This document shows, one piece after another, positions 6,912 to 13,877 of a stretch of 64,000 bases of DNA. The DNA is from Corallococcus macrosporus DSM 14697. GTDB taxonomy: Bacteria > Myxococcota > Myxococcia > Myxococcales > Myxococcaceae. The DNA is taken from NCBI RefSeq assembly GCF_002305895.1, contig NZ_CP022203.1, positions 6,172,001-6,236,000 on the forward strand. Reading direction: 5' to 3'. The translations under genes and the position numbers were made by a program. Numbering within the stretch: the first letter of the stretch is position 1; each line of letters opens with the position of its first letter. Below the pieces are notes generated by a model. The model was given only the letters and a program-made list of their open reading frames with translations. It ran no database searches and had not been told where the DNA came from.

Positions 6912-9419
6912 TCAGATGCCCAGCTTGACGCCCACGATGACGGTCCGCGGCGCGTTGGGCCGGGCGCCGTAGGGGCGGCGCGACACGATGGCCTGCTCGT
7001 CCAGGATGTTGCGAGCGCTCAGGTAGAGCTGCCCCCAGCGGGAGAAGTGCCAGCTCGCGTTGACGTCGAAGGTCAGCAGCGCGTCCGTCAGCTCGCCCGG
7101 GGGCGCCTCGCCCTGCCCCGCCCTCTCGCGCATGGCGTCCACGTAGAAGGCGCTCAGGGCCAGGCCGCCCCAGGCCGTCTCCACGCCCGCGGTGGCGTAG
7201 AGCTGGTGCCGGGGCACGTAGGGCAGCTCGTCGCCCGCGCGCACGTTGCCGAACTGCGGGTCCGCGGACTGGAAGGCCTCGCGCAGCCGCGTGCGCGTGA
7301 AGGTGTAGGACAGCGACACGGGGAACGTCACCCCGCCGCCCGGGCGGAAGGTCTTCTCGCCGAAGACCTCCAGGCCGTAGATGTACGCCTTGCCCGCGTC
7401 CGTCTGCCGGTCCAGGTCGTCGTTGAGGCAGCCGCTGGAGAAGGTGCAGATGTCGGTGAGGTTGGAGTAGTCGTTGAAGAAGCCCACCGCCTCCAGCCGC
7501 TCGCCCCGGCGCGTCCACCGGGCGCCCGCCTCGTAGTTGATGCTCTTCTCCGGCAGCACCGCGTCCGGCTGTCCGGGCGCGGGCGGCGAGAAGCCGCGGT
7601 AGGCCCCGGCGAACAGGCCCAGCTCGCGCGTCAGCGCCCCGTAGACGCCCATGCCCGGCATGAGCACCTCCAGCGCGCCATGGGACTCGGCGCCCGTCAG
7701 GCGGTTCGAGGACTCGGAGCGGATGATCTCCAGCCGCACGCCCGGCGTCAGCACCAGGGGGCCCCAGCCGATGGCGTCCGTCGCGTGCAGGGCGACGGCG
7801 TGCGTGGCGTCCTTGTTGTCGGCCGTGGTGTACGTGGGCTCGCTGGTCCGCACGAGCTGGCCGCCCTGCATGAGGAAGGCGTCCTCGGTGTGGAGGCGGC
7901 GGATGCGGTCGTAGTGGAAGCGCGCGCCCAGCTCGAGGTTGTGGCTCAGCGACCCGGTGTTCGTCGTCCAGCGGGCGATGCTCTGGAGGCCCTGGGACAC
8001 GTAGGTGCGGTCGTTGGGGCCGATGAGCAGCGCGTCCTGGGCCGACGCCGTGTCCAGCTCGCCGGTGAGCACGCCGTAGTAGATGGCGTTGCGCGCGCTC
8101 GTGGGGTCCGCCAGCACGCTGGCGATGGAGGCGCCGCGGAAGCGGTTCACCTTGCGCCACGCCCGGCTCAGGTCCTGCCGGTAGACGGACGTCGTCACGG
8201 CCAGCCCGCCCGCTTCGAGTTCGTGGCTGAGCACCACCTGCGTGCGGTGCCACTTCATGTGGTCCAGGGCGCTGGCGACGTAGCGGCGCAGCGGCGCGGC
8301 GGCGAAGTCCGCGTCGCTCAGGCCCAGGTACGTCTCGTTCGAGTCCTCGTCCGAGTAGCCCAGCTTGAGCTGGAGCGTCTGGCGCACCGGCCCTTCCGGG
8401 ACGAGCTGGTAGCGGCCCTTGGCCATCCACTCGTTGCGGGTGAAGCCCGTGTCGCCGCCCACGGTGTCCAGCTCCTTGAAGCCGTCACTGCGCAGGTGGA
8501 CGCCCTCCAGCAGGAAGCCCGCGCGCTCGGTGCTGGCGCCGAAGACGCCGTGGGCCTTGCCGTAGAGGTACTCGCCGCCCGCCACGTCCAGCCACGCCGT
8601 CTCCGACGCGGGGATGTCCCGGGTGATGAACTCCACGGAGCCGCCCACCGTCTGCGGCCCCTGCTGGATGGCCGAGGGCCCCTTCAGCACGCGGATGCTC
8701 TGCATGCGCGTGGCCAGCGGGAAGTAGTAGGCCGCCGGCGCGGAGTACGGCGCCGGGCCGAAGAGGATGCCGTCCTCCAGCAGGGTGACCTTCTTGGCGC
8801 GGTCCGGGTTGACGCCGCGCAGGCCCACGTTCGGGCGCAGGCCGAAGCCGTCCTCGCCACGGGAGTACACGCCAGGCACCGTCTGGAGGATGGCGGCCGG
8901 GTCATCGCGCTCGAAGCGCTCCAGCTGCGCGGGCTTCAGGACGTGGATGGAGCCGCTGGTGCGCGCCTCCGACGTGCCCACCACCACGCTCTCGAACTTC
9001 TTCTCCACCCGCTCCGGCGAGGGTTCGAGTACCAGCGGCTCGCTCGCGGCGGCGAGGGGAGCGTCGCTCGCGGGCGCCTCCTCGGTGGCGGCCAACGGTG
9101 GCTCCGGCGCGGCGGCGACGTCGGGGGCGGCCAGCGGTGGCTCCGGCGCGGCGGCGACGTCGGGCGTTTGCGCCGTGTCCGACGCGGCTGCGGTGTCCTG
9201 CGCCGGCGGCGACTCGGGAACCCCGGCGGCGGCGTCCTGCGCCGGCGGCGACTCTGAAACCCCGTTGGCGGCGTCCTGCGCCAGCGACGGTTCGGGAACC
9301 CCGGCGCCGTCATCCTGGGGCGGCTCGGACTGTGCCGCGGCCGGAGAGGCCCATGTCAGCAAGAGCGCCGGAACCGTCCAGCTCCGCGCCCGCATCCACT
9401 TCTGCTCGAACAGTGCCAT
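6912..9419 (-). CDS. TonB-dependent outer membrane receptor, FecA-like
   Basis: 835 residues. A signal peptide (Trp/Leu-rich core ending SPAAAQ, about residues 12-30) is followed by about 110 residues of Ala/Pro/Glu-rich low-complexity repeats. Then come a TonB-box-like ESVVVGTS (about 142-149) and the plug domain, with PAAILQTVPGV, PNVGLRGVNP, LLEDGILFGPAPY, IRVLKGPSAIQQGP and TVGGSVEFITR. The rest is a 22-stranded-barrel-type C-terminal part ending with a hydrophobic residue. Such receptors import ferric siderophores, ferric citrate or other scarce ligands through TonB energy. It lies downstream of the delta-60 lipoprotein on the same strand, close to two Fur-like operators, which favours an iron ligand. 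The hairpin at 9446-9499 could partly separate the two transcripts. Confidence 0.9.
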   Translation of the reverse strand: MALFEQKWMRARSWTVPALLLTWASPAAAQSEPPQDDGAGVPEPSLAQDAANGVSESPPAQDAAAGVPESPPAQDTAAASDTAQTPDVAAAPEPPLAAPDVAAAPEPPLAATEEAPASDAPLAAASEPLVLEPSPERVEKKFESVVVGTSEARTSGSIHVLKPAQLERFERDDPAAILQTVPGVYSRGEDGFGLRPNVGLRGVNPDRAKKVTLLEDGILFGPAPYSAPAAYYFPLATRMQSIRVLKGPSAIQQGPQTVGGSVEFITRDIPASETAWLDVAGGEYLYGKAHGVFGASTERAGFLLEGVHLRSDGFKELDTVGGDTGFTRNEWMAKGRYQLVPEGPVRQTLQLKLGYSDEDSNETYLGLSDADFAAAPLRRYVASALDHMKWHRTQVVLSHELEAGGLAVTTSVYRQDLSRAWRKVNRFRGASIASVLADPTSARNAIYYGVLTGELDTASAQDALLIGPNDRTYVSQGLQSIARWTTNTGSLSHNLELGARFHYDRIRRLHTEDAFLMQGGQLVRTSEPTYTTADNKDATHAVALHATDAIGWGPLVLTPGVRLEIIRSESSNRLTGAESHGALEVLMPGMGVYGALTRELGLFAGAYRGFSPPAPGQPDAVLPEKSINYEAGARWTRRGERLEAVGFFNDYSNLTDICTFSSGCLNDDLDRQTDAGKAYIYGLEVFGEKTFRPGGGVTFPVSLSYTFTRTRLREAFQSADPQFGNVRAGDELPYVPRHQLYATAGVETAWGGLALSAFYVDAMRERAGQGEAPPGELTDALLTFDVNASWHFSRWGQLYLSARNILDEQAIVSRRPYGARPNAPRTVIVGVKLGI
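9080..9330 (-). repeat. In-frame Ala/Pro/Glu-rich repeats in the TonB receptor N-terminus
   Basis: The DNA encoding receptor residues of about 30-113 contains short imperfect tandem repeats. One unit encodes AAPEPPLAAPDV and occurs twice back to back. Another encodes GVPESPPAQDAA with variants and occurs three to four times. The encoded stretch is disordered, acidic and proline-rich, lying between the signal peptide and the TonB box. It may act as a periplasmic tether. Repeat slippage should make its length vary between strains. Confidence 0.7.
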
Positions 9420-9530: not shown

Positions 9531-11009
9531 CTACTGCTTCTCGACGGGGCCGCCGATGACGATCTTGCCGTCCGACTGGATGGCGATGCCGCGAGCGGTC
9601 TCCTCGGTGGCCGCCGTGACGACGTTGACCTTGGCGATGCCGCCGGTGCCGAAGGTCGGGTCGAGGTTGCCGTCGGTGGTGAAGCGCGCCACCACCATGT
9701 GGTTGTCACCCCCCTCGGTCACGAAGCCCGCCGCGTAGATGCGGTTGTCCGAGTCGAAGGCGACGGACCAGAAGCGGTCGTTCTCCGTGGTGGAGATGGG
9801 CGTGGCCTTGACGACCTCCGTGCCCGTGCCACCCGTGGGGATGATGGCCAGGATGGCGTCGGTGCCCTCGTCGCCACCGGCGCGGTAGCCCACCGCGGCG
9901 GCCCAGTTGCCGTCCGCCGACTTGGCCACGCCGAAGAAGGCCTGCTCGGAGCGCTCAAGGCCGTAGACCTTGTAGCCTTCCGGCGCGAAGGTGGTGTCCG
10001 GCTGGCCGTCCGCCGTCTGCATCAGGAGCATGGCCTGGATGTTCTGCGCGCTCGGCGTACCGCTGCCCACGTGCAGGACGCGGTCGTCGTTCAGGACCAC
10101 CAGGTTGCGGCCGCGGTCGTTGTCACCGGCCAGGTCCAGCACCACGGCGCCGCCCGTGCCCCACGTCGGGTCGAGCTCGCCCGTGGCGGTGTAGCGGAAG
10201 GACACCAGGTCCACCGTGCCGGAGGACGCGGACCGGCCGTAGCCCGTCGTCACGTAGCTGCCGGTGGACTGCATGCCGGCGGCGTAGGCCTCGGCCATGC
10301 CCCACTCGGGGTTCGTCTCGCTCTGGGCCTGGAACGGCGCGGACGTCACGACGCCCTTCCAGCCGAAGGTGTCATCCGCCTTGCCGTCGTCGTTCAGGCG
10401 CTGCAGCACGATGCGGTTGGCCGCCTGCGCACCCACGCCCGTGGGCATGGACGTGTAGCCGGAGGTCATGATCTTCCCGTCCGGCTGCACCAGGCCGTAG
10501 CGCATGCCGTCGTTCAGGTTGGACAGGTTGAGGACGCTGAAGCCGTTGGGCGTCGCCGCCGAGCCGAACGTCGTGTCCAGCGCGCCCGTCGCCGTCAGGC
10601 GGGCCACCACGCGGTCGGTGTCCGCGCGCGTACCGTCCGCGCGCTTGTTGCCGAACAGCACGATGCGGTCCGTGGCGTCCACCCGCACGTCCCACAGCGA
10701 GTCACGCGTGCCGTCGCGGCCGGTGCCGAAGTCCACGTGCGTGACGCCGCCGGCGCCAAACGTCGTGTCCTGCGTGCCGTCCGTGTTGAGGCGCACCACC
10801 GCGATGTCGCTGTCCAGCGGGCCCGTGCCGGCGTCCGGCGTCGGTTCCGTGCCCGCGTCCGTCTGCGTGCCCGCGTCCGACTGCGTGCCCGCGTCGGGGA
10901 TGGGCGTCGGCGTGGGCTCGTCGTCGCCGCAGCCCGTCATGCACGCCAGCGTGAGCGCCAGGGCCGCTCCACGCACCAGGAAGCCGCGGTGATTGACCGT
11001 CTTCAACAT
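9531..11009 (-). CDS. Delta-60 repeat lipoprotein
   Basis: 492 residues. The signal sequence ends in the lipobox LACMTGC, followed by a Thr/Pro/Asp linker with DAGTQSDAGTQTDAG repeats. The rest consists of delta-60 repeats with the recurrent core DTTFGxGG (as TQDTTFGAGG, ALDTTFGSAA, ELDPTWGTGG, NLDPTFGTGG) and the strand pattern R-I-V-L-x-G. Delta-60 repeats form beta-propeller-like surface domains that are very common in myxobacteria. Biochemical role is unknown, but a surface lipoprotein is likely. The ATG at 11009 has GGAGGGG upstream. A Fur-box-like sequence sits 40-54 bp upstream of the start. The TonB receptor follows downstream, so the protein may help capture iron or an iron ligand. 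That is inference from context only. Confidence 0.85.
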   Translation of the reverse strand: MLKTVNHRGFLVRGAALALTLACMTGCGDDEPTPTPIPDAGTQSDAGTQTDAGTEPTPDAGTGPLDSDIAVVRLNTDGTQDTTFGAGGVTHVDFGTGRDGTRDSLWDVRVDATDRIVLFGNKRADGTRADTDRVVARLTATGALDTTFGSAATPNGFSVLNLSNLNDGMRYGLVQPDGKIMTSGYTSMPTGVGAQAANRIVLQRLNDDGKADDTFGWKGVVTSAPFQAQSETNPEWGMAEAYAAGMQSTGSYVTTGYGRSASSGTVDLVSFRYTATGELDPTWGTGGAVVLDLAGDNDRGRNLVVLNDDRVLHVGSGTPSAQNIQAMLLMQTADGQPDTTFAPEGYKVYGLERSEQAFFGVAKSADGNWAAAVGYRAGGDEGTDAILAIIPTGGTGTEVVKATPISTTENDRFWSVAFDSDNRIYAAGFVTEGGDNHMVVARFTTDGNLDPTFGTGGIAKVNVVTAATEETARGIAIQSDGKIVIGGPVEKQ

Positions 11010-11048
11010 GATGTTCGTCCCCTCCTCGGGAGTCCTTCGAACTGCAAA

Positions 11049-11063
11049 CGATAATCGTTATCA
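11049..11063. promoter_or_regulatory. Fur-box-like operator 1
   Basis: The 15-bp sequence CGATAATCGTTATCA matches the 7-1-7 Fur motif TGATAAT-N-ATTATCA at 12 of 14 arm positions. It is also the core of AACGAT-A-ATCGTT, a perfect 6-1-6 inverted repeat. It lies 40 bp from the delta-60 lipoprotein start and 135 bp from the imelysin start. A/T-rich operators stand out strongly in this GC-rich genome. It would repress both divergent units under iron sufficiency. Confidence 0.72.
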
Positions 11064-11156
11064 GTTTCGGTGCGCAGCCTCCTACTTCGGATGAGCGCTT
11101 CGGGTCAACCTCCAAGCTGTAGGAACTCGCATGGTATCCGGGAGAAATTTTGAAGT

Positions 11157-11171
11157 TGATTGTCATTAACA
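11157..11171. promoter_or_regulatory. Fur-box-like operator 2
   Basis: TGATTGTCATTAACA matches the 7-1-7 Fur motif at 11 of 14 arm positions and lies 27 bp before the imelysin ATG. It is embedded in a larger inverted repeat, GAAGTTG (11152-11158) and CAACTTC (11170-11176). With operator 1 it frames the divergent promoter region of the delta-60/TonB receptor and imelysin/gamma-carboxylase-like units. Confidence 0.55.
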
Positions 11172-11197: not shown

Positions 11198-12430
11198 ATG
11201 AACTCCGAGTCGTCACGCCCCCACTCCGCCCTTCGCGCGAGCGCCATCGCGCTCGTGGTTCCCGCGCTCCTCTCGCTGTCCGCGTGCAAGTCGGACAAAC
11301 CGGCGCCACCGGACGCGGGCGCGCCCGACGACACCGTGGCCGCGACGCGGGCCGCGCTGCTGGAAGCGTCCGGCGCCTGCGTCCTGCAGACGGCGCGTGA
11401 ATTCCAGACGGCGGCCGCCGCGCTGGACGACGCCGTCAAGGCGCACGCGGCCACGCCGGACGCCACCACGCGGGACGCCGCGCGCGCGGCCTACCACGCG
11501 GCCATGGACGTATGGCAGGTGGCGGAGGTGATGCAGTTCGGGCCCGCGGCGCCTCGCAGCGTGCCGGGTGGCGCGGAGCATCGCGACAACATCTATTCGT
11601 GGCCGCTGGTCAGCCGGTGCGCCGTCGAGGAGCAGGTCGTCAACCGCAGCTACGCGTCGGAGTCCTTCGAGACGTCGCTGGTGAGCCGCCGCGGCCTGTA
11701 CGCGCTGGAGTACCTGCTCTTCTTCGAGGGCAACGACACCGCCTGCCCCGGCACCTCCGCCATCGTGTCCCAGGGCACGTGGGCGGCGCTGTCCGAGGAC
11801 GAGCGGGCCGCGCGCAAGCGGGCGTACGCCGCCGTGGTGGCCGCCGACGTCCACCGCCGCGCGGACGCGCTGGTGAGCGCGTGGGCCGCCGACCAGGGCA
11901 ACTTCACCCAGACGCTGACGACGGCCGGCTCCGGCAACGACGTGTACCCCTCCACGCAGGCGGCGCTGAACGCCATGAGCGACGCCATCTTCTACCTCGA
12001 GCGCGAGGTGAAGGACCTCAAGCTGGCGCGCCCGCTGGGGATGCGTGAGTGCGCCACGTCCACCTGCCCCGAGCACCTGGAGTCGCAGTTCGCGGCGCGC
12101 TCGAAGACGAACCTCCGCGCCAACCTGGTGGGCTACCGCCGCCTCACGGAGGGCTGCGGCGAGGACTTCTCCGGCACCGGCTTCGACGACCTGCTGGAGG
12201 CCTCGGGCGCGGACGCCCTGGCGGCCAGGCTGCGCGAGCGCAACGCGGCGGCGGCGGCGGGCATCGAGGCCCTCCCGGGCGAGGACGTGGCGACCCTCCT
12301 GGCCCAGGACAAGGCCGCGGTGCGGACCCTGTACGACGCCGTCAAGGGCGTGACGGACGTCCTCAAGACGGAGCTCGTCACCGTGCTGGACCTGGAGCTG
12401 CCCCAGTCCGTCGAGGGGGACAATGACTGA
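11198..12430 (+). CDS. Imelysin-family lipoprotein
   Basis: 410 residues from the ATG at 11198. A TTG 16 codons upstream would put a non-signal sequence before the signal peptide and would overlap operator 2. The signal peptide ends in the lipobox LSAC. The imelysin core is recognisable: VMQFGPAAPRSVPGGAEHR, then DNIYSWPLVSRCAVEEQV, RRGLYALEYLLFF and the long helical C-terminal half. Imelysins are helical periplasmic or surface proteins frequently regulated by Fur and linked to iron uptake (EfeO relatives). The classical GxHxxE motif appears as GLYALE, with Tyr replacing His, so the metal-binding site is altered. The next gene overlaps it by 8 bp, which couples their translation. Confidence 0.85.
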   Translation: MNSESSRPHSALRASAIALVVPALLSLSACKSDKPAPPDAGAPDDTVAATRAALLEASGACVLQTAREFQTAAAALDDAVKAHAATPDATTRDAARAAYHAAMDVWQVAEVMQFGPAAPRSVPGGAEHRDNIYSWPLVSRCAVEEQVVNRSYASESFETSLVSRRGLYALEYLLFFEGNDTACPGTSAIVSQGTWAALSEDERAARKRAYAAVVAADVHRRADALVSAWAADQGNFTQTLTTAGSGNDVYPSTQAALNAMSDAIFYLEREVKDLKLARPLGMRECATSTCPEHLESQFAARSKTNLRANLVGYRRLTEGCGEDFSGTGFDDLLEASGADALAARLRERNAAAAAGIEALPGEDVATLLAQDKAAVRTLYDAVKGVTDVLKTELVTVLDLELPQSVEGDND

Positions 12431-13877
12431 GGTGGCGCCAGGCGCGCGTTCCGCCTCCGCACGCCTCTGGCAAGCGCTGCTGGCGCCGCGAGACCTCGCG
12501 GCGCTGGTGGCGTTCCGCGTGGCGCTCGGGCTGCTCGTCACCGTGTCAGCGGTCCGGTTCCTCGCCTACGGCTGGGTGGACGTGCTGTTCACCGGCCCCC
12601 GCTTCCACTTCACCTACTGGGGCTTCGGCTGGGTGCCCGCGCTGCCGGCGCCCTGGATGCACGCCGTCTTCGCGGCGCTCGCGGTGCTCGGGCTCTGCAT
12701 GGCGGCGGGCCTCTTCTACCGCGTGGCGGTGGCGCTGCTGTTCGTCACCTTCACCTACGTCCAGCTCGTGGACGTCAGCAACTACCTCAACCACTACTAC
12801 CTGGTGAGCCTGCTGCTGGGGCTGATGCTCTTCGTCCCGGCCCATCGCGGCTTCTCCGTGGATGCGTGGCGCACCCCGGCGCTGCGGAGCGACTGGCTGC
12901 CGGCGTGGTGTACGTGGTTGCTGCGCTTCCAGGTCGGCGTGGTCTACGTGTTCGCCGGACTGGCGAAGCTCACCAGCGACTGGCTGGTGCATGCCCAGCC
13001 GCTCAACATCTGGCTGTCGGCGCGGACGAGCCTCCCCGTGGTGGGGCCGCTGCTCGCCGAGCGCTGGGTGGCCTACGCGGCGGCGTGGTCGGGCTTCCTG
13101 TTCGACACCTTCATCGTCGCCTGCCTCCTCACGCGGAAGCTGCGGCCCTTCGCCTACGTCGTCGTCATCGGGTTCCACGCGGCCACCTCCGCGCTGTTCC
13201 CCATCGGGATGTTCCCCGTCATCATGGTCACCGGCGCGCTCGTGTTCTTCGAGCCGTCCTGGCCACGGCGCCTGTTCCAGGGGCTGCGCACCCGCTTCGC
13301 CCGGGTGGCCGCCGCGGCCGAGCCGCCCGCTGAACCGGCCTCGCCCCTGGCACCGGGAGCCCCCGGCTGGAAGGCCCGGGCGGCCCTGGGACTGGCCGTG
13401 GCCTACGCCGTCGTCCAGGTCGCCGTGCCCCTCCGGACGCACCTGTATGGTGGCAACGTGCTGTGGCACGAGCAGGGCATGCGCTTCTCGTGGCGGGTGA
13501 TGGCGCGCGAGAAGAACGGCAGCGTGACGTTCATCGTCCGCGACCCGGCGTCGGACCGGGAGTGGCACGTCACGCCCACCCAGTACCTCACCCGCCTCCA
13601 GGAGCGGGAGATGTCGGTGCAGCCGGACCTCATCCTCCAGCTCGCGCGGCACATCGCCCGGGACTTCGAGGCACGGGGCAAGGGCCGGGTCCAGGTGCAC
13701 GTCGACGCCCTGGTGTCGCTCAACGGCCGGCCCGCGGAGCGCCTGGTGGACCCCGACGTGGACCTCGCCCAGGAGGTGGACGGACTGGCGCCCAAGCGGT
13801 GGATCCGCCCCGCGCCGGACACGCCGCCCGTCCGCCTGCGCTCTCCGCTCCGCGGGGCCACGGCCGAGCGGCTGTAG
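12423..13877 (+). CDS. HTTM-domain protein, vitamin-K-dependent gamma-carboxylase homologue
   Basis: 484 residues. The N-terminal two thirds hold several hydrophobic membrane segments between about 25 and 285. The soluble C-terminal part (about 345-465) contains WHEQGMRFSWRVM, a beta-rich segment, and VSLNGRPAERLVDPDVDL. That last block matches the pattern S-x-N-x-R-x-x-x-R-x-x-D-P-x-V-D of the animal enzyme. His124 (LNHYY) and Lys182 (AGLAKLTSDW) align without a gap with human GGCX His160 and Lys218, with 58 residues between them in both. The animal enzyme carboxylates protein glutamates using vitamin K hydroquinone. The bacterial substrate and quinone are unknown. The ATG lies inside the imelysin stop region (8-bp overlap), so the two proteins are made together, probably under Fur. 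Confidence 0.85.
   Translation: MTEVAPGARSASARLWQALLAPRDLAALVAFRVALGLLVTVSAVRFLAYGWVDVLFTGPRFHFTYWGFGWVPALPAPWMHAVFAALAVLGLCMAAGLFYRVAVALLFVTFTYVQLVDVSNYLNHYYLVSLLLGLMLFVPAHRGFSVDAWRTPALRSDWLPAWCTWLLRFQVGVVYVFAGLAKLTSDWLVHAQPLNIWLSARTSLPVVGPLLAERWVAYAAAWSGFLFDTFIVACLLTRKLRPFAYVVVIGFHAATSALFPIGMFPVIMVTGALVFFEPSWPRRLFQGLRTRFARVAAAAEPPAEPASPLAPGAPGWKARAALGLAVAYAVVQVAVPLRTHLYGGNVLWHEQGMRFSWRVMAREKNGSVTFIVRDPASDREWHVTPTQYLTRLQEREMSVQPDLILQLARHIARDFEARGKGRVQVHVDALVSLNGRPAERLVDPDVDLAQEVDGLAPKRWIRPAPDTPPVRLRSPLRGATAERL

Follow-up and report, generated by a model that had tools for sequence, protein, structure and literature searches.

The window, a stretch of 64 kb from the genome of a soil bacterium, encodes a VKGC-family protein whose predicted fold is closely related to that of GGCX, the human vitamin K-dependent carboxylase of clotting factors. 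Directly upstream lies the gene of an imelysin lipoprotein that ends in a short acidic D-x-D tag, and this pairing of VKGC and imelysin recurs across phyla. The tag is nearly invariant and hints at what the bacterial VKGC may act on. The tagged partner, on which the preliminary description of this DNA was silent, is the best clue to the VKGC substrate. Bacterial homologues of the vitamin K-dependent carboxylase are known, but we know of none with a known substrate. New are the iron-linked partner and its tag; the chemistry discussed below is a proposal.

Family membership and fold

The VKGC gene and its main features are the following:

12423-13877, + strand: VKGC-family protein (HTTM plus VKGC lumenal domain), 484 aa (Pfam, phmmer, AlphaFold2, Foldseek, VIA-align)
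12486-13262, + strand: HTTM domain, residues 22-280 (Pfam PF05090, E 6.5e-79, over the cut-off)
13380-13817, + strand: VKGC lumenal domain, residues 320-465 (Pfam PF22777, E 4.4e-46, over the cut-off)
12789-12794, + strand: N123-H124, corresponding to human N159-H160 (phmmer, residue map; 160/160 rows)
12966-12968, + strand: K182, corresponding to the human catalytic base K218 (phmmer, residue map; 160/160 rows)
13482-13484, + strand: R354, a putative tag-recognition residue adjoining M353 (human Y395) (row comparison)

The 484-residue protein is a member of the VKGC superfamily. A chance resemblance to GGCX is ruled out because of the Pfam E values for the HTTM and PF22777 domains, and likewise by phmmer. 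In the search against the PDB chain sequences, residues 13-469 align with residues 49-511 of human GGCX, which is the sole PDB match (eight distinct chains, E 7.9e-38 to 2.7e-37). H124 falls on H160 and K182 on K218 with zero gaps between them, and the residue map also equates N123 with N159 and W187 with W223. The preliminary description had placed His124 and Lys182 58 residues apart as in GGCX, with a gap-free stretch between them and an SVD at the matching offset, and had matched a C-terminal VSLNGRP...DPDVDL segment to GGCX. All of this is borne out by the translated reading frame (His124 is CAC at 12792-12794, Lys182 is AAG at 12966-12968) and by the phmmer alignment, in which SVD (145-147) and VSLNGRPAERLVDPDVDL align with the human SVD and VSINDRFQQRIFDPRVDI. 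The coordinates given there, 12792-12970, span the two residues and not the entire gene.

The AlphaFold2 model, built on the 31-row alignment A1, has a pLDDT of 90.2 and a pTM of 0.88. All Foldseek rows at E <= 0.001 (the first 16) are GGCX, with a best E of 4e-22 and a TMq of about 0.80. Superposition on GGCX, which had been proposed as a check, gives a Z of 34.8 and an rmsd of 3.0 over 438 residues in VIA-align. Together with the lumenal domain, this fold rules out that the protein is a mere HTTM protein.

Quinone pocket and substrate side

The GGCX residues at the naphthoquinone ring, the isoprenyl tunnel, and the substrate are named in Zhong et al. 2025 (PMC12589487). Six of the seven ring residues are identical in VKGC (H160, V210, W223, F286, F294, and F299 in human numbering), and the seventh, M401, is V359. 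K218 and N159 are identical as well, and so are two of the six tunnel residues (A214 and G259). On the substrate side, the human residues Y395, R436, and N158, which serve the Glu side chain and the peptide, are M353, E396, and L122 in VKGC, and K217 is A181. Of the propeptide exosite, Y425 is H382, and the human residues beyond about 511-527 have no counterpart (phmmer extends to 511, VIA-align to 509-528). The disulfide pair C99/C450 of GGCX is not kept either.

The 160 bacterial rows compared (154 distinct when judged by the last 200 residues) exclude L051 and all rows shorter than 380 aa; throughout these 160, N123, H124, K182, W187, F251, G262, F264, R338, W357, Q393, and N434 are invariant. 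R338 and R354 are bacterial specialities, the human residues at these positions being S380 and G396. By this residue comparison, the quinone pocket and the base are kept; the residues that bind the peptide in the animal enzyme are not, nor is the C-terminal part of GGCX. Given the lumenal domain, the GGCX fold, the invariant base, Asn, and His, and the six ring residues, quinone-epoxidase-type chemistry is plausible in the bacterial VKGC. The preliminary description had argued for retained carboxylase or quinone-epoxidase chemistry instead of a mere HTTM membrane protein. Its rejection of the latter stands and the quinone part is plausible, but animal-type carboxylation of Glu peptides finds no support in the altered Glu- and peptide-binding residues and the missing C-terminal part. 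VKGC thus seems to resemble GGCX in its quinone-side working, which does not imply that it is an animal-type glutamyl carboxylase.

The imelysin partner and its gene cassette

Upstream of VKGC the following genes are found:

11198-12430, + strand: imelysin (M75) lipoprotein, 410 aa, lipobox Cys30, stop overlapping the VKGC start (Pfam PF09375, E 3.9e-34)
9531-11009, - strand: delta-60 repeat / DUF5122 beta-propeller protein, divergent from the imelysin (Pfam PF17164, NCBIfam TIGR02608)
6912-9419, - strand: TonB-dependent receptor (Pfam PF00593, PF07715)

The mechanical reading frame of the imelysin begins at 11150, and the Met at 11198 was picked as the probable start by the signal peptide. 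In addition to the PF09375 match, the sequence contains G166-L-Y-A-L-E171, as expected for an imelysin (GxxxxE or GxHxxE), and the lipoprotein Cys30 is present in 99% of the paired imelysins.

In 195 genomes of the window's phylum, PF22777 is found in 72, imelysin in 91, and both in 69 (Fisher p 3.7e-29, not corrected for relatedness). An imelysin gene lies at most 6 kb from VKGC in 69 of the 88 VKGC places of this phylum, always upstream on the same strand; the remaining 19 include contig ends and second copies. The cross-phylum set consists of the best 80 of 506 confirmed loci (36 from Bacteroidota, 28 from Myxococcota, and others from eight further named phyla, with many MAGs among them) and shares six imelysin records with the phylum set. 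In 74 of these best 80 loci an imelysin lies at most 8 kb from VKGC, and three of the six loci without imelysin begin less than 200 bases before VKGC. Other cassette genes in the best 80 of 506 loci belong to clusters that were each named from one representative: DUF4856 in 47 loci, di-haem oxidoreductase in 15, and DUF5122 in 9. In the 47 loci concerned, the DUF4856 proteins sit upstream of the paired imelysin (for example at 1287-2417 of L171).

The C-terminal acidic tag

12419-12427, + strand: acidic tag D408-N409-D410 at the imelysin C-terminus (comparison of paired imelysins)

The imelysins adjacent to VKGC end in EGDND, DNDGD, SDSD, and similar sequences at the very C-terminus. Defined as D-x-D within two residues of the end, the tag is present in 136 of 138 paired imelysin rows, or 131 of 132 distinct ones. 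The sole untagged distinct imelysin is a frameshifted record seen twice (L055 and L124), which contains EGDND in another frame. Among 39 aligned paired imelysins, the only invariant columns are G115 and the last residue, D410; the other 38 sequences are 19-87% identical to that of the window. In the model of the imelysin the last ten residues have a mean pLDDT of 68 versus 90.8 overall.

Outside the pairs the tag is rare. It is found in 1 of 1140 other reading frames of at least 250 aa and in 0 of 273 frames of at least 200 aa in low-GC loci, the latter being the fairer control because many reading frames of high-GC loci are gene shadows. Among the 207 frames of at least 150 aa in the window, the imelysin is the only one to carry it. 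A general imelysin feature is ruled out by the other imelysins of the same loci, of which 1 in 30 is tagged. The tag can also not be a by-product of the overlapping VKGC start codon, given that 55 of 56 non-overlapping cases still have it. A looser tag test on 53 unpaired imelysins gave seven positives, and imelysins near VKGC in other arrangements (L137, L141, L145, and L148) have a D-x-D near the end too.

Link to iron

11044-11068, + strand: Fur-like operator in the divergent promoter, two overlapping 19-mers, 15 of 19 to consensus (consensus scan)
11152-11170, + strand: second Fur-like site, 14 of 19 (consensus scan)

The 19-mers were scored against a Fur consensus. The two overlapping 19-mers are the best Fur-like matches in the 64 kb, the third best (14 of 19) being the one at 11152. 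With up to two mismatches, GATAATNGTTATC occurs in the 64 kb solely in the divergent promoter (one site, counting both strands), at 0.15 expected. Sites of at least 14 of 19 are present in 38 of 138 upstream regions versus 9 of 400 random stretches. Most of the strong ones come from relatives of the window's organism with imelysin as first gene, and such near relatives are not independent. From these sites we infer that the cassette is under Fur control in the window's organism.

A TonB receptor lies at most 6 kb away in 44 of 53 tagged loci drawn from the best 80 of 506 cross-phylum loci and in 42 of 55 tagged loci of the phylum set, versus none of four untagged loci, counting loci with full flanks. 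In PMC5609570, a table with the heading 'Gene regulation by fur under iron restricted conditions' lists a TonB receptor, a 'vitamin K-dependent gamma-carboxylase', an imelysin, and a hypothetical protein of Riemerella anatipestifer, encoded at consecutive loci. The neighbours of this carboxylase are thus like those of VKGC, to which it is likened here by annotation name only. The imelysin families themselves have been tied to iron uptake (PMC3143127).

Phylogeny, partner exchange, and exceptions

In a quick tree of 73 rows chosen from 161, 65 tag-side rows are split from human GGCX and seven VKGCs in untagged context with a branch support of 97. Human GGCX groups with these seven, but its end branch is 2.9 and the placement unsure. 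A tagged neighbour was looked for in the seven cases and none could be assigned. R354 is an Arg in 150 of 153 tag-side rows versus one of seven on the other side, where six of seven have Asn or Lys; the sides are also separated by V359 (human M401) and T255 (human N290). In L035 (7324-8067, + strand), an untagged-context VKGC on the human side directly follows an Imm52 immunity-protein gene. L176 is a MAG contig under the title Klebsiella pneumoniae whose VKGC clusters with one from Verrucomicrobia at a support of 100; the contig is probably mislabelled or a contaminant.

In three loci (L098, L101, and L103), VKGC is preceded not by an imelysin but by a secreted-looking protein ending in GGGSDSDSD or GGGGSDFD, and a Pfam scan of two of these three proteins found no family. 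The VKGCs of these loci group together as a single tag-side clade with an SH-aLRT of 100. Judging from these sequences, this clade appears to have exchanged imelysin for an unrelated secreted protein bearing the same tag.

Four genomes (G010, G008, G053, and G187) have tagged imelysins and no PF22777 match, and a search for HTTM gave weak matches in two of them and none in the other two. VKGC could have been lost here or the assemblies could be incomplete, but these genomes also allow for a tag that is sufficient by itself. Several tagged imelysins are not beside VKGC, though VKGC is encoded elsewhere in the same genome. In L223 and L225, such a tagged imelysin adjoins a delta-60-like gene; no VKGC match is nearby and VKGC is found elsewhere in the genome. 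In L223 the tagged imelysin is followed by an M48-like gene (by frame ends), as VKGC is in the window.

In G006 (L108, 8089-8310, + strand, and L238), VKGC is broken into two reading frames with an Arg in the Lys182 column, and a 73-aa remnant of a tagged imelysin precedes it. The two genes seem to be decaying together, which fits a joint function of VKGC and tagged imelysin.

VKOR, read off the profile-search tables, is present in 64 of the 72 VKGC genomes versus 79 of 123 other genomes. VKOR as an obligate partner of VKGC is therefore not supported. A single VKOR match is present in the genome of the window, at 7579116-7579526 (- strand) inside a frame of 486 aa about 1.4 Mb from the window; it is a possible menaquinone-epoxide recycler.

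Possible function

Family, fold, pocket, cassette, and tag are computed results. Going beyond them, we infer that menaquinol serves as co-substrate, that the tail is the substrate, that the chemistry is carboxylation, and that the metal is iron. By analogy with the GGCX site, which faces the ER lumen, the active site of VKGC would face the periplasm. Lys182 would deprotonate menaquinol, and O2 would convert it into a strong base, yielding menaquinone epoxide. This base would deprotonate an acidic partner side chain held by N123/H124, and CO2 would then be added to that side chain. The substrate would be the D-x-D tail of the imelysin lipoprotein encoded directly upstream in the iron-regulated cassette, and the product a malonate-type metal ligand (Gla- or beta-carboxyaspartate-like) at the protein end, serving iron capture together with the TonB receptor. 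That VKGC modifies, and most likely carboxylates, the tail in this way to make an iron ligand has in our view about an even chance of being correct. Several points count against it. The Glu modified by GGCX lies within a Gla domain bound through a propeptide, and the tag is Asp at a free C-terminus; Y395 and R436 are not kept; four tagged-imelysin genomes have no PF22777 match; several further tagged imelysins are not beside VKGC; eight of 72 VKGC genomes are without VKOR, a candidate epoxide recycler; and no tagged neighbour could be assigned to the seven VKGCs that the tree places opposite the tag side.

The tail could instead be an unmodified ligand of iron or calcium, or a contact for another cassette protein, with VKGC being adjacent since both serve iron uptake. 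The four genomes that keep a tagged imelysin with no VKGC found, as well as the association of imelysins with iron uptake, agree with this. However, the tag goes with VKGC and not with imelysin in the partner exchange, and the 30 other imelysins of the same cassettes, which presumably serve iron uptake too, are tagged once. We regard an unmodified tail as unlikely.

Short conserved C-terminal tags often serve as recognition signals. The tail might accordingly be for docking only, and VKGC would then act on a different imelysin site, such as the conserved Glu295, or pass menaquinol electrons to bound iron. Position 295 is Glu in 94% of the paired imelysins versus 18 of 53 others, where His is commonest, and GGCX has an exosite distinct from its catalytic site (PMC12589487). 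But the alignment with GGCX runs out at the end of VKGC, short of the remaining propeptide-binding region, and the only visible features common to the exchanged partner and the imelysin are a secretion-like N-terminus and the tag. A pure docking role is thus not favoured, and we rate it about as improbable as an unmodified tail.

That VKGC is a menaquinol epoxidase or a quinone-binding scaffold that does not carboxylate seems quite unlikely to us. It might be thought so from the divergent Glu- and peptide-binding residues, and the Leptospira homologue reportedly shows a changed activity that points to some function besides carboxylating proteins. However, N123/H124, the equivalents of the GGCX residues holding the substrate Glu, are present in 160 of 160 rows.

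Returning to carboxylation of the tail, VKGC and the D-x-D tail might more generally form a dyad of enzyme and tag: driven by menaquinol, the carboxylase would act on the C-terminal aspartates of secreted proteins for iron uptake and give them a beta-carboxyaspartate-like, citrate-like chelating end. We put this wider idea forward tentatively and consider it rather doubtful as a whole.

Relation to known systems and significance

PEP-CTERM with exosortase and GlyGly-CTERM with rhombosortase are pairs of a C-terminal tag and a dedicated membrane enzyme. In these pairs, as in the one described here, a secreted protein bears a short C-terminal signal that is conserved and accompanied by one membrane enzyme, but exosortase and rhombosortase are proteases or transpeptidases, whereas VKGC is a relative of a quinol-dependent carboxylase. 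In contrast to the substrates of GGCX, the proposed imelysin substrate has neither propeptide nor Gla domain. The imelysin/EfeO loci (PA4370-PA4373 of Pseudomonas, LruB of Leptospira) also combine imelysin lipoproteins with iron regulation, and some VKGC cassettes hold a second imelysin and a di-haem oxidoreductase as these loci do. VKGC is not mentioned in the accessible parts of the literature on these loci, and those of PMC3143127 do not contain carboxylase, vitamin, or HTTM. Within the coverage of our search, outside which most subscription journals lie, no paper was found that links VKGC, imelysin, and the tag.

The recurrent iron-linked and tagged partner provides a concrete candidate substrate and residue, and the substrate question is therefore reduced to a single mass-spectrometry experiment. 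If carboxylation were confirmed, a modification thought to be animal would be a bacterial tool of iron uptake, and menaquinone would gain a use outside respiration. If the dyad of enzyme and tag were also true, vitamin K-type carboxylation would be a widespread modification in bacterial iron acquisition, and the carboxylation of animal blood clotting would belong to a sister branch.
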